A stretch of DNA of 61,736 bases from a bacterium (GTDB taxonomy: Bacteria > JAHJDO01). Positions 5,041 through 53,981 of the stretch are shown here, piece after piece (position 1 is the first letter of the stretch; each line of letters begins with the position of its first letter). The stretch is taken from NCBI GenBank assembly GCA_030652805.1, contig JAUSPT010000092.1, positions 1-61,736 on the forward strand, in the 5' to 3' direction. The position numbers and the translations under genes are program-made. The notes under the pieces are model-generated. The model was not told the origin of the DNA. It did not search any database and saw only the letters and a list, made by a program, of their open reading frames with translations.

Positions 5041-5469
5041 ATGGCATTAATTCCCAAACGCGTTAAACATAGAAAGATGCAGAGAGGACGTATGAAAGGA
5101 ATCTCCAGCAGAGGGCATAATACAAGTTTTGGAGAATATGGTTTAAAAGCTTTAGAATGTGCGTGGATAACTAGCCGTCAGCTTGAAGCTGCAAGAGTTG
5201 CAATGACAAGATATATTAAACGAGGTGGCAAGGTTTGGATAAGAGTAGTTGCTGATAAGCCTGTAACAAAAAAGCCGGCTGAGACTAGGATGGGAAAGGG
5301 GAAAGGAGCCCCCGAGTACTGGGTTTCAGTTATCAAGCCGGGTAGAGTCTTGTTTGAGCTAGGCGGTATTTCAGAAGATTTAGCACGAGAGGCTATGAAA
5401 CTTGCGGCAACAAAACTGCCTATAAAGACACGATTCATAGTCAGAGGAAAATTGGGTGTGACATCATAA
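5041..5469 (+). CDS. rplP: 50S ribosomal protein L16
   Basis: The 142-residue protein begins [20 protein letters not shown] and carries [29 protein letters not shown] and the [22 protein letters not shown] loop that contacts the A and P sites. L16 is a late-assembling 50S protein needed for peptidyl transferase function. The stop overlaps the start of rpmC by one base (TAATG). Confidence 0.98.
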
Positions 5470-5696
5470 TGAAGGTTAGTAAGTTTAGAGATATGACAAA
5501 TATAGAATTGGATCAAGAGCTTGTTAATTTAAAACAGGAAATATTCAATTTGAATGTTCGTTCATCTACAGGGCAATTGGAGGATACAAAAAGGACTGGA
5601 CGATTAAAAAAGGATATAGCAAGAATTAATACTGTCTTGAGAGAGAGACAGATAGAGGAAGAGAAAAGTGAGAAGGATTCAAATAAAAAAGACTAA
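5469..5696 (+). CDS. rpmC: 50S ribosomal protein L29
   Basis: The 75-residue helical protein has the L29 core: [29 protein letters not shown], then the [16 protein letters not shown] helix. L29 sits near the exit tunnel beside L23. It is slightly longer than the 60-70 typical because of a charged tail that overlaps the start of rpsQ by 29 bases. Confidence 0.96.
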
Positions 5697-5928
5697 AGCA
5701 GGTGTTGTTGTTAGTGATAAGATGGATAAGACGGTTGTCGTTTTAGTAGAAAGGCTGGTTTCACATTCAGTCTATAAAAAAAAAGTTAGAAGATTCAGCA
5801 GGTTTAAAGCCCACGATAAAGATAACTCTGCGCATATAGGCGATAGAGTGGAAATTAAGGAAACCAGGCCGCTAAGTAAAGAAAAAAGATGGTATATTTC
5901 AAGGATTATAGAAAGGTCTAATAGCTGA
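5668..5928 (+). CDS. rpsQ: 30S ribosomal protein S17
   Basis: The 86-residue protein carries the S17 OB-fold features: [21 protein letters not shown], then [27 protein letters not shown]17 is a primary 16S rRNA-binding protein. It starts at GTG 5668 inside the rpmC tail; an ATG at 5722 would cut off the conserved first beta strand. rplN follows after two bases. Confidence 0.96.
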
Positions 5929-5930
5929 AT

Positions 5931-6299
5931 ATGATACAAGCGCAAACCATTCTCAATGTAGCTGATAATTCAGGAGCAAAAAAGTTGATGTGCTTCAAGG
6001 TATTAGGAGGCACACGCAGAAGGTATGCCCGAATAGGCGATATTGTAGTAGCGTCTGTAAAAGAGTCAACTCCTGAGGGTGTTGTTAAAAAGGGGGAGGT
6101 AGTAAAAGTTGTTATTGTGCGAACAAGAAAAGAAATTAGAAGAGAAGATGGTTCCTATATAAAGTTTGATAAAAATGCTGGTGTTATAATTGATGCTCAG
6201 AAGAATCCGATTGGGACAAGGATTTTTGGACCAGTTGCCAGAGAATTGCGGGATAAGGAGTTTACTAAAATTATTTCATTAGCTCCTGAGGTTATTTAA
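5931..6299 (+). CDS. rplN: 50S ribosomal protein L14
   Basis: Exactly 122 residues, the universal length. Signatures are [20 protein letters not shown], the [20 protein letters not shown] block, and a C-terminal [21 protein letters not shown]14 lies at the subunit interface, where it forms a bridge with 16S rRNA and binds the silencing factor RsfS. It is placed between rpsQ and rplX as in most bacteria. Confidence 0.98.
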
Positions 6300-6319
6300 A
6301 AGGAAAAGTGAAGAATTAA

Positions 6320-6652
6320 ATGGCTAAAGAACATAATTATATTAAAAAAGGTGATCAAGTTGTGGTTATATCAGGGAAGGAGAAGGGCAAGACAGGGCGT
6401 GTTTTGCGTGTATTTCCGAAGAAACAGAGAGCTATTGTAGAGAGAGTGAATTTTGTTAAGAAACACACAAAACCTTCACAGAAGAATCGACAAGGGGGGA
6501 TAATAGAAAAAGAGGCGTCTCTGCATGTGTCTAATTTATTGTTATATTGTGTGCGATGTGAAAAAGGGTCGAGAATCGGATTCAAAATGTTGGAAAATAA
6601 AAACAAAGTGAGATATTGCAAACGTTGCAATGAGTTAATTGACAAGAGTTAA
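6320..6652 (+). CDS. rplX: 50S ribosomal protein L24
   Basis: The 110-residue L24 has the KOW motif [20 protein letters not shown] and the conserved [12 protein letters not shown] with [17 protein letters not shown]24 starts 50S assembly by binding the 5' part of 23S rRNA. The C-terminal segment contains a C-x2-C pair and CKRC, a possible zinc ribbon seen in some bacterial L24 proteins. rplE starts two bases after its stop. Confidence 0.97.
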
Positions 6653-50773: not shown

Positions 50774-50807
50774 ATATTCCAATTTGGCATATTACAAAAT
50801 GGAATAT
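50774..50807. promoter_or_regulatory. Inverted repeat before the XRE regulator, possible C-box
   Basis: ATATTCCA (50774-50781) and TGGAATAT (50800-50807) form a perfect 8-base inverted repeat with 18 bases between. It lies directly in front of the predicted XRE start at 50826, where operators of restriction controller proteins usually lie. Function is inferred. Confidence 0.5.
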
Positions 50808-50825
50808 AGTATAAAGGATATCATT

Positions 50826-51047
50826 ATGAAGAAAGCTTTATATTCAGAAGAGCATAAATATTTAGTTGATCGATTAAAGCAGGCTCGGAAAGATGCTGGG
50901 ATTGATCAAATGCAGGTTGCTAATTTGTTAGATGTTTCTCAATCTTATATTTCTAAGGTAGAAGCCGGGCAGCGTCGTATTGATGTAATTCAATTGAAGG
51001 AATTTGCAAAGATCTATAAAAAAACACTGAACTTTTTTATAAAGTAA
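50826..51047 (+). CDS. XRE-family regulator, restriction controller-like
   Basis: A 73-residue single-domain helix-turn-helix protein: MQVANLLDVSQSYISKVEAGQRRIDVIQLKEFAKIY. AAGGA 7 bases before ATG 50826 decides the start; ATGs at 50784 and 50799 fall inside the inverted repeat. Small XRE controllers time restriction enzyme expression. The endonuclease gene starts one base after its stop. The protein could bind the inverted repeat at 50774-50807. Confidence 0.85.
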   Translation: MKKALYSEEHKYLVDRLKQARKDAGIDQMQVANLLDVSQSYISKVEAGQRRIDVIQLKEFAKIYKKTLNFFIK

Positions 51048-51048
51048 T

Positions 51049-51750
51049 ATGGATTTAAAAGAGCTAAAACAAAAACTTCAACAAATAAAAAAAGAAGGAT
51101 TCATCAAAACCCACCGCATTAGTGACACGGGAATTGGTAAAACCTTAGAAGATTTACTCGATATACCAGAGAACAATATTCCTCTCCACGATATTGCAGG
51201 TGTTGCTGAACTAAAAGCGTACCGCAAAGAAGCAAAATCCATGTTGACACTTTTTACGCTAGAACCATTACCAAAAGGCGGAGATAGAGATAGATTGCTG
51301 CTAGATAATTTTGGTTACTCTCGCAGAGATAATAAACGTTCAAAAGAGTTACACAGCACGCTTTCATGCAAAAGATACAATGCCCAAAAATTAAGATTAT
51401 CCGTTAGCAAAGATAAGATCAAAGTTAAAGGAGAAGGAAAACGATTAAATATCTATTGGGACATTGAATCGGTAAAAAAGAAATTTGAAGCTAAATTACC
51501 GGCTCTTGTTTATGTTTTGGCTGATAAAAAAATCATAAATTCGTTTGAACATTTTCACTTCAATGAAGCTTATTTATTGAAGGATTTTAGTTTTGAATTA
51601 TTTAAGAAGATGGTCAAAAAAGATCAGATAGTAGTTGATTTTAGAATGTATTATAGACCTAATGGGACGGTAAGAAATCACGGAACAGGTTTTAGGGTTA
51701 AGATCAATAGACTGTATGACTGCTTCAAAACCAAGATTAGATTGGTTTAG
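51049..51750 (+). CDS. MvaI/BcnI-family restriction endonuclease
   Basis: A 233-residue nuclease of the MvaI/BcnI family. The catalytic residues fit D48, E54 and K56 in LHDIAGVAELKAYRK; further family blocks are SKELHSTLSCKRYN and YYRPNGTVRNHGTGFR. MvaI cuts CCWGG and BcnI CCSGG, so a CC-N-GG type target is likely but not determined. It is co-directional with the XRE gene, and its stop overlaps the stop of the convergent LexA-methyltransferase by 3 bases. Full length for the family. Confidence 0.9.
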   Translation: MDLKELKQKLQQIKKEGFIKTHRISDTGIGKTLEDLLDIPENNIPLHDIAGVAELKAYRKEAKSMLTLFTLEPLPKGGDRDRLLLDNFGYSRRDNKRSKELHSTLSCKRYNAQKLRLSVSKDKIKVKGEGKRLNIYWDIESVKKKFEAKLPALVYVLADKKIINSFEHFHFNEAYLLKDFSFELFKKMVKKDQIVVDFRMYYRPNGTVRNHGTGFRVKINRLYDCFKTKIRLV

Positions 51751-53612
51751 TTCTTCCTCAAAACAACGATGCTTTCCTTTGTCATTGTTTCTTCCAGTTC
51801 TCCTGCGATATTTGTAGGAGAATTTTTTGAAGGCATTCTTTTGCCGGGGATATTTCTAACAAAGATATCTTCACAGGTAAAACCAATTTTTTCGCATAAT
51901 TCTGCGATGATGAAATCAGTCGGTATGCGTACCTGCTTTACTAATCGATTGCCGATGACTAGGCAAAAATATTTTTTTCTTTTCAATATCTCATAGGATT
52001 TCTTTAGACATTCATTTAAATCTATATAAAAGCTTAATACATCCCTTGCTCTCTTTTTATCCATTTCTTGAATTCTTTCTAAAGATTCCCTTAAGTGAGA
52101 AGATTCAAGAGAATGAAGCAGATTGCCAGTTGGTTTACCTCCCAATAATTTATTGTCAACGCCTGATGCAGTGTTTGGATCTTCAAAAATGTCAATCCAC
52201 TGAGCAGATAATCTTGAGAATTGTCCATATGCCACAGTTGTTCTGCTGTCGCCATAGGGCGGAGATGTTATAATGCAATCTATGGAATCGCTTTTTATTG
52301 TGCTGATTAGAGAAGTATCCTCATAGATGGGTTTAGTCCATGTATTTTTGTCAACTTCTTGATAGAACTTTCTCATCCCTTCAATATTTAATTCGGTTTT
52401 TTTTCTAAAAATGTCAAGCACATTAGGATTGTGATTTTTCAGTTTATCAGCTTTTATTCGCACAAGTTTAAATTCCCCGTTCTTTGTATTTGAAGAAAGT
52501 CTAACTGCTTCGCTAAAGGAAACTAAAAAAAAGTTTTTAATCTTTTCATTTTTTGTATCATTAATAGCCTTTTTCAATTTTGCCAATTTCAAAATAACTT
52601 TCTCTTTAAACCAAAAGTCCACATTCATAAAGTCTGGCAGTACGATTTTATCGTTTTTTATATGGTCAAACCTATTAAGTAAATTGAAATATTCTTTTGT
52701 AAGCGCAGATGGGTTTATTTCAGTTGTTTTTACTTTTGCTAAGAATATAGCAAATGGATTTAGATCAATTCCGTAAGCATTTCTACCTAGTAACCTACTC
52801 TCAACTAAAGCGGTTCCAGAGCCGCAAAAGATATCGCAGATAGTATCGCCTTTCCTGCTGTACGTCTCTATCAGACGTCTTGCGACCTGAGGGATGAACA
52901 TTGCTGGATAACCGTGCAAACCATGAGTATAAGATTTTGTTTTCTCACCTCTATAATCCCATGAATAGTCAATGCGCCTTTTTAGTTTTGCATCCTTATA
53001 TTTATCTTTTTCTAAAAGAGGTTCTAGATTTCTAATTATCTTTACAACGATACCTCTAATTTCGACCTCCTGCCTATAAATTGGCAATAGCGTAAGATTT
53101 GCAGGTTGTAATCTGAATTGGTTATTTTCTCGGTAAAGTTTTTTTAATGTGGCTTCATTTTCATCGATTATCGCTACAACGGTTTGGCCATTGTCAGCAG
53201 TTTCTTGCTTTTTAATAACAACTATATCGCCATCAAAAATGCCCTCTTCAGTCATGCTATCACCAGTAACGCGCAAAGCATAATATTTACCTGCCCTGCT
53301 AGTTTCATTTCTGGAAAGAGTGATTGTTTTATCGGATAGTTCAATTGCTTCAATTGGCTGGCCGGCAGCAATAGTGCCGACTATGGGTATTTCGATAGAT
53401 TGGGCATTCTTTTTAGGAATCAATGCTCTAGGTTGATTATCTTCTTTGTGTAAGTAACCCATATTCTGAAGAGCTTGGACGTGATAGTGAGCAGTTGAAA
53501 CGGAGGAAAGCAGTAAGTGTTTCTTGATTTCCTCAAGAGAGGGAGCGTAGTCGTGCTTAGTGATATATTTTTTTATGTATTCCAATACTTGCTTTTGTCG
53601 TTTTGTGAGCAT
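51747..53612 (-). CDS. LexA repressor fused to a TSPPY-type DNA methyltransferase
   Basis: A 621-residue fusion. Residues 1-196 are a complete LexA: a winged helix (TKRQKQVLEYIKKYITKHDY and SSVSTAHYHVQALQNMGYL), cleavage site Ala83-Gly84 in TIAAGQP, Ser119 in TGDSM and Lys157 in ATLKKLY. Residues about 225-621 are a DNA methyltransferase with motif I DIFCGSGTALVES (260-272) and TSPPY (449-453), the type seen in N4-cytosine enzymes. GGAGG before ATG 53612 sets the start; a GTG at 53618 lies inside that ribosome site. It is convergent with the endonuclease and presumably protects its sites. RecA-driven self-cleavage and damage control are inferred. Confidence 0.93.
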   Translation of the reverse strand: MLTKRQKQVLEYIKKYITKHDYAPSLEEIKKHLLLSSVSTAHYHVQALQNMGYLHKEDNQPRALIPKKNAQSIEIPIVGTIAAGQPIEAIELSDKTITLSRNETSRAGKYYALRVTGDSMTEEGIFDGDIVVIKKQETADNGQTVVAIIDENEATLKKLYRENNQFRLQPANLTLLPIYRQEVEIRGIVVKIIRNLEPLLEKDKYKDAKLKRRIDYSWDYRGEKTKSYTHGLHGYPAMFIPQVARRLIETYSRKGDTICDIFCGSGTALVESRLLGRNAYGIDLNPFAIFLAKVKTTEINPSALTKEYFNLLNRFDHIKNDKIVLPDFMNVDFWFKEKVILKLAKLKKAINDTKNEKIKNFFLVSFSEAVRLSSNTKNGEFKLVRIKADKLKNHNPNVLDIFRKKTELNIEGMRKFYQEVDKNTWTKPIYEDTSLISTIKSDSIDCIITSPPYGDSRTTVAYGQFSRLSAQWIDIFEDPNTASGVDNKLLGGKPTGNLLHSLESSHLRESLERIQEMDKKRARDVLSFYIDLNECLKKSYEILKRKKYFCLVIGNRLVKQVRIPTDFIIAELCEKIGFTCEDIFVRNIPGKRMPSKNSPTNIAGELEETMTKESIVVLRKN

Positions 53613-53635: not shown

Positions 53636-53664
53636 TTGACTTTCGATTTATTTTCGATTATAAT
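53636..53664 (+). promoter_or_regulatory. Consensus promoter for the SNase-like gene
   Basis: TTGACT at 53636-53641 and TATAAT at 53659-53664 are separated by 17 bases, a near-consensus sigma-70 promoter. Transcription would begin near 53671, giving a 35-base leader before ATG 53706. This argues against the longer SNase frame starting at 53673. Confidence 0.75.
53641..53659. promoter_or_regulatory. TTTCGATT direct repeat, candidate LexA operator
   Basis: TTTCGATT occurs at 53641-53648 and 53652-53659, 11 bases apart, giving TTCG-N7-TTCG. The spacing is the same as the direct-repeat LexA box GTTC-N7-GTTC of alphaproteobacteria. It lies inside the plus promoter spacer and across the start of the minus transcript, so binding there could block both. 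Operator function is inference. Confidence 0.5.
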
Positions 53665-53685
53665 ACGATGCATTGGATGAGTCAA
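53657..53685 (-). promoter_or_regulatory. Consensus promoter for the LexA-methyltransferase gene
   Basis: On the minus strand TTGACT at 53685-53680 and TATAAT at 53662-53657 are 17 bases apart. The -10 overlaps that of the opposite promoter in the palindrome ATTATAAT (53657-53664). Start would be near 53650, about 38 bases before ATG 53612. RNA polymerase cannot occupy both promoters at once. Confidence 0.75.
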
Positions 53686-53705: not shown

Positions 53706-53981
53706 ATGTCAAAAGGGAGAGTAACGGAAATTATTGATGGAGATACTTTTAAGGTAGTAGGTGGAAAAACTATTCGTCTTGCAAGTGTGAGGGCGCCAGA
53801 GATTGGGACTAAGGGAGGTGCTAAGGCAAGAAATGATTTGGAGAATATGATAGGGGACAAGACGATTAGTTACGATACAGTAGCCAAATCCTATGGAAGA
53901 AATGTTGCTGAAGTAAAACTTGCAGGAAAGTCAGTTAATCAAGGGATGAGAAATAAAGGCTATAGAAATAAAGGTATATAG
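53706..53981 (+). CDS. Small thermonuclease-like (SNase) protein
   Basis: A 91-residue protein from ATG 53706 after GGAGGT at 53695-53700. SNase features are GRVTEIIDGDTFKVVGGKTIRLASVRAPE and YGRNVAEVKLAGKSVNQGM. It is shorter than the usual 130-150 residues and seems to lack a signal peptide, so it may act in the cytoplasm or be a minimal form. It shares overlapping opposite promoters with the LexA-methyltransferase. I infer it belongs to the same defence unit. Confidence 0.83.
   Translation: MSKGRVTEIIDGDTFKVVGGKTIRLASVRAPEIGTKGGAKARNDLENMIGDKTISYDTVAKSYGRNVAEVKLAGKSVNQGMRNKGYRNKGI

Follow-up and report, generated by a model that had tools for sequence, protein, structure and literature searches.

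The window, by which we mean the whole 61,736-nucleotide stretch of bacterial DNA analyzed here, encodes a single polypeptide in which a complete LexA repressor is joined to a DNA methyltransferase. We propose that it modifies DNA for a Type II restriction-modification system, the complete LexA serving as an N-terminal control module. In the resting state, the LexA moiety would dimerize, occupy a direct-repeat operator at the fusion's promoter and hold methyltransferase synthesis down, while the endonuclease would be run by a separate HTH gene. DNA breaks and the ensuing RecA filaments would cause the LexA part to cut itself between Ala83 and Gly84, shedding the 83-residue DNA-binding domain and leaving an intact methyltransferase that keeps the protease domain; the freed promoter would then raise methyltransferase supply and shield new or under-modified DNA from self-restriction. 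We consider this proposal as a whole, a LexA-autorepressed methyltransferase derepressed by RecA-triggered cleavage, to be probable. To our knowledge, it would be the first case of an SOS switch and a modification enzyme in one polypeptide.

The gene lies on the minus strand and its parts are as follows.

51747..53612, minus strand: LexA-methyltransferase fusion CDS, 621 residues, ATG at 53612, delimited with orthologues
53424..53609, minus strand: LexA winged-helix (wHTH) DNA-binding domain, residues 2–63 (PF01726 LexA_DNA_bind, 6e-17)
53043..53387, minus strand: peptidase S24 domain, residues 76–190 (PF00717, 4e-29)
53361..53366, minus strand: predicted self-cleavage pair Ala83-Gly84, kept in 83/83 readable fusions
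53256..53258, minus strand: catalytic Ser119 codon, present in 84/84 fusions
53142..53144, minus strand: catalytic Lys157 codon, present in 84/84 fusions
51750..52967, minus strand: DNA methyltransferase part, residues 216–621 (PF01555 in two stretches; conservation)
52815..52838, minus strand: SAM-binding motif CDIFCGSG, residues 259–266, invariant or near-invariant
52254..52268, minus strand: catalytic motif TSPPY, residues 449–453, invariant

An ORF check found all 621 codons open in an uninterrupted frame. The TIGR00498 lexA profile scores 181 bits over residues 2–196, against a cut-off of 111 bits, and the full-length winged helix and S24 domain, the cleavage pair and the catalytic Ser and Lys are all found. 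The C-terminal part matches N6_N4_Mtase (PF01555) at 1e-21, and this match is split because motif I (CDIFCGSG) precedes motif IV (TSPPYG; TSPPYGDSR in the window). The first-pass annotation had read a complete LexA and a TSPPY methyltransferase in one frame, with Ala83-Gly84, Ser119 and Lys157 in place, and the profile matches and the sequence agree with it on each point. A frameshift or assembly error at the domain junction, which it had named as the way its reading could fail, is ruled out by a congener (G002), whose own copy of the fusion is 96% identical and open over 636 codons, and by many independent genomes. The search for further LexA-methyltransferase fusions that it had suggested, here a scan of 84,980 genomes, returned ~50 more genomes with full-length fusions at 57–79% identity.

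Full-length fusions thus occur in many uncultured bacteria, for the most part Patescibacteria, with some Omnitrophota and one genome labeled Deltaproteobacteria/Myxococcota; the same scan gave one partial fusion in Elusimicrobia. The window's own phylum is represented by five genomes, too few to inform on prevalence. LexA-only matches from 55 distant families sit in ordinary-length frames and were rejected as fusions in other phyla. We also rejected a virus-, plasmid- or phage-borne origin, as no relative was confirmed among viral contigs and no full fusion was present among plasmids and phages. Purifying selection acts as strongly on the two LexA domains as on the methyltransferase: in comparisons between pairs of fusions, omega is ~0.02–0.14 for both winged helix and S24, values as low as those of the methyltransferase part.

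The fusion lies beside a restriction endonuclease, which is preceded by a putative regulator of its own.

51049..51750, plus strand: MvaI/BcnI-family restriction endonuclease, convergent with the fusion with a 4-nt stop overlap (PF15515, 1.8e-47)
50826..51047, plus strand: XRE-type helix-turn-helix gene upstream of the endonuclease, in a C-protein-like position (HTH_3, 7e-12)
50780..50808, plus strand: candidate control box of the HTH-endonuclease operon, TTGGCATAT / ATGGAATAT, period 15

The nearest solved structure for the endonuclease is R.MvaI (2oa9, 1e-23), which together with the PF15515 match bears out the convergent MvaI/BcnI-type nuclease claimed earlier. A PF01555 methyltransferase thus adjoins a recognized PF15515 endonuclease, the arrangement of a Type II restriction-modification system. 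Upstream, an XRE HTH gene with its own candidate repeat box 5' of the endonuclease gives a putative C-protein-type layout, and period-15 repeats of the TTGGCATAT / ATGGAATAT type recur upstream of HTH genes at other loci. A convergent partner, endonuclease or other ORF, adjoins 76/87 fusions, mostly with a 4-nt overlap; because a few loci were taken twice (L047/L136, L075/L157 and L078/L138, and in the 92-promoter set L093/L146 and L094/L149), this and related counts include up to five duplicates. The first-pass annotation had advised a check of conservation beside MvaI-like nucleases; the nucleases that adjoin fusions span at least 11 families. Elsewhere in the same genome, a second methyltransferase (G000:C32:58657-59832, L002) has no LexA and resembles the C-terminal part of the fusion (32%).

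Two promoters were read from the sequence in the region 5' of the fusion, one for each direction, together with a repeat that overlaps both.

53657..53685, minus strand: predicted sigma-70 promoter of the fusion (TTGACT 53685–53680, 17-nt spacer, TATAAT 53662–53657)
53636..53664, plus strand: predicted divergent promoter (TTGACT 53636–53641, spacer formed by the operator, TATAAT 53659–53664)
53642..53658, no strand: candidate operator, period-11 direct repeat TTCGATTTATTTTCGAT, sole exact match in the genome, backed by enrichment and the recognition rule below
53706..53981, plus strand: small staphylococcal-nuclease-like (SNase-like) ORF under the divergent promoter (PF00565, 8e-5)

The TTCGATTTATTTTCGAT repeat covers the -10 and start region of the fusion promoter and fills the spacer of the divergent one, and a third half-site, TACGAT, lies beside it at 53664–53669. 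Among deduplicated upstream regions, perfect 7-mer repeats at period 11 occur in 44% of those of the window type and 55% of those of the other types, compared to ~0.5% of shuffles; other spacings show no enrichment. In its exact form, TTCxyT-N5-TTCxyT, the repeat occurs in 44/92 fusion upstream regions versus 18 times in 1.04 Mb elsewhere. A period-11 repeat is seen in most fusion promoters, and ~11/82 upstream regions carry no clear one. An operator common to the endonuclease gene was rejected, since the period-11 test was negative at 62 R and 10 HTH upstream regions.

The half-sites vary together with the protein. TTCxA half-sites pair with Tyr, Phe or His at residue 43 in 47/47 cases and TTCxG half-sites with Glu or Gln in 23/23 (Fisher 6e-19), while the sole TTCGC case among the fusions has Lys at this position, which aligns to Glu45 in the recognition helix of E. 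coli LexA. With the wHTH left out and the tree computed from S24 only, the half-site class shows at least 7 independent switches (11 by parsimony). Stand-alone LexAs, which were not used in finding the rule, fit it in 5/5 cases, including a Lys with TTCGC. This exceptionless covariation, held across at least seven switches and in stand-alone LexAs too, provides strong evidence that the fused LexA binds the period-11 operator, and the pairing of residue 43 with base 5 of the half-site amounts to a recognition code for direct-repeat LexAs that can be tested directly. Operators of the direct-repeat type have been described for some LexAs, and one paper cites a Patescibacteria study for them (PMC7739468). 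Because the operator overlaps the promoter, the prediction that the fusion represses its own promoter is strongly supported by the sequence.

Several other features of these promoters were observed. The SNase-like gene and the fusion have the operator in common both in the window and at L031, where the SNase-like neighbor is also present, and at L147 (5843-7810) a LexA-methyltransferase carries an SNase domain at its C-terminal end. The DnaA box, in the exact form TGTGGATAA / TTATCCACA, is found in 47/92 fusion promoters versus 25 times in 1.04 Mb elsewhere; it sits ~20–25 nt 5' of the LexA operator (for example at L036, L040, L050 and L165, ~-50 to -80), is absent from the window and from the Omnitrophota loci, and at L143 lies between dnaA- and dnaN-like genes. 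A coupling to replication initiation is possible. In many Patescibacteria fusion promoters the start codon lies ~7 nt past the -10 box, which suggests leaderless transcripts.

The cleavage apparatus of the fused LexA is preserved. The cleavage pair and the Ser/Lys dyad are kept in 83/84 fusions, across three methyltransferase folds, and the remaining sequence is masked; the fused LexA is thus apparently still self-cutting. The modeled protease domain (mean pLDDT 79) superimposes on RecA-bound LexA (8gms) with a TM score of 0.84 and an rmsd of 2.3. A recA gene was found in the window's own genome and in 34/39 hosts; the five host genomes with no recA match are incomplete assemblies. As a point against RecA dependence, some LexA-like proteins, such as IrvR, are cut without RecA (PMC7101444). 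On our proposal, cleavage would be triggered by RecA and followed by a rise in methylation.

Three other readings of the protein have to be weighed. That the fusion is simply the organism's global SOS repressor, which happens to bear a methyltransferase, might be thought from its being the only LexA or S24 protein found in a genome that is 95.6% complete. Most other fusion hosts, however, have separate stand-alone LexAs, and the control of a gene set including recA that marks an SOS regulon is not seen: the genome holds a single exact copy of the operator, at the fusion, with near-matches at control level and none at recA, and the period-11 repeat was not found upstream of recA in 14 hosts. 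We regard a global role as extremely unlikely; with its operator unique and absent at recA, the fusion looks like a local controller and not a global SOS regulator. The earlier suggestion of a tie to the SOS state is well supported in one respect, the connection of methyltransferase expression to a repressor of SOS type: the cleavage residues are kept and the recognition helix covaries with a direct-repeat operator at the gene's own promoter. A genome-wide SOS role is not supported.

A purely homeostatic autorepressor, acting like the N-terminal HTH of M.SsoII or M.EcoRII with self-cleavage that is slow, residual or set off by a non-RecA signal, would account for the operator evidence, which requires repression alone; it is well established that some methyltransferases use an N-terminal HTH to shut down their own synthesis (PMC3874152). 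A plain HTH would suffice for this purpose, yet every readable fusion keeps the cleavage site and both catalytic residues in a highly constrained S24 domain, and we find this account unlikely. Less likely still is that cleavage destabilizes or inactivates the methyltransferase, leaving cells that are damaged or infected to die from restriction of their own chromosome. E. coli LexA fragments are degraded after cleavage, in keeping with such a loss of protection, and restriction systems can be addiction modules (PMC3874152). A cut at Ala83-Gly84 would instead fall N-terminal to the protease domain and detach the DNA-binding domain alone, with the protease domain staying on a whole methyltransferase, and would also derepress the gene and raise supply. 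LexA-controlled autorepression relieved by RecA-triggered cleavage remains our preferred reading.

The fusion was first seen as a single case. It proved real and part of a wider pattern that takes in several methyltransferase classes and endonucleases of many kinds. Host genomes contain additional long frames with LexA, and in a sample of 287 Patescibacteria genomes 17/17 of those fetched were LexA-methyltransferase fusions. Pfam places the fused methyltransferases in three groups, C5 (PF00145), D12 (PF02086) and N6/N4 (PF01555), and at least 11 endonuclease families lie beside them: BglII, TaqI, ScaI, PvuII (a weak match, 1e-5), MamI, EcoRV, NgoFVII, endonuclease VII, AlwI, MjaI and MvaI/BcnI; several partners have no Pfam match. 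A tree of 83 LexA domains groups every fused LexA in one clade (support 99/96, 56 rows), which contains one stand-alone member; 27 stand-alone LexAs branch outside it. C5 fusions nest within the window's type and D12 fusions require three label changes; the tree therefore indicates that one LexA lineage was joined to different methyltransferases several times. A stand-alone LexA belonging to the fused clade (L148:6392-7159) overlaps an ORF for a nuclease-like product (5358-6425), with an HNH-like ORF beyond. At L146 (11408-13504) a helicase-like protein has a C-terminal LexA-like S24 domain; its genome additionally encodes a LexA fusion to a C5 methyltransferase.

A restriction system has to leave its own chromosome uncut, most of all when DNA is being repaired or replication is under stress. 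If our proposal is true, a damage-cleavable repressor inside the modification enzyme is a direct route to more protection when breaks appear. That the module was taken up repeatedly by C5, D12 and N6/N4 enzymes, next to so broad a range of endonucleases, points to a general advantage in small-genome bacteria, about whose regulation little is known. On balance, we lean slightly towards the broader view that this is an as yet undescribed class of restriction-modification control, with the LexA lineage as a plug-in damage sensor for unrelated Patescibacteria methyltransferases, in which breaks from self-restriction would engage RecA, cleave the repressor and restore methylation in a closed loop.

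Each component of this arrangement has a known counterpart. C proteins are established controllers of restriction-modification, and as in the C-protein Type II systems PvuII and Esp1396I, the endonuclease in the window is preceded by an XRE-type HTH gene that has a repeat box of its own; the window differs in that the methyltransferase gene is convergent and has a second, separate controller fused to it. In the MvaI/BcnI system of Latilactobacillus curvatus pL127-2 (L204), the methyltransferase is of the same family (44%) and is accompanied by an MvaI/BcnI endonuclease and an HTH gene, as in the window, whereas the layout is divergent and there is no LexA. Since an equivalent methyltransferase/endonuclease pair exists without it, LexA is best seen as an added control part. 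The fusion shares with the LexA SOS repressor (TIGR00498) its domain structure, cleavage site, dyad and a predicted autoregulated promoter; it differs in its permanent methyltransferase partner, its dedicated operator and the lack of any sign of a wider regulon in its own genome. Our literature search found no description of a LexA-methyltransferase fusion; a Patescibacteria SOS-network study (Sanchez-Osuna 2017) lay outside that search, and a prior description is possible. The closest parallels are M.EcoRII, M.SsoII, Ecl18kI and ScrFI, which have an N-terminal DNA-binding domain and an operator over their own promoter (PMC3874152), an anatomy that the fusion, with its candidate operator, appears to share. 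Those enzymes carry a short HTH, whereas the fusion has a complete LexA whose self-cleavage apparatus is conserved, and thus a possible damage input. Unlike in the SsoII/EcoRII type, a single LexA lineage here works with several unrelated classes of methyltransferase. Autoregulated methyltransferases are themselves known; what would be new is that the controller of such a modification enzyme is an SOS repressor able to cleave itself.
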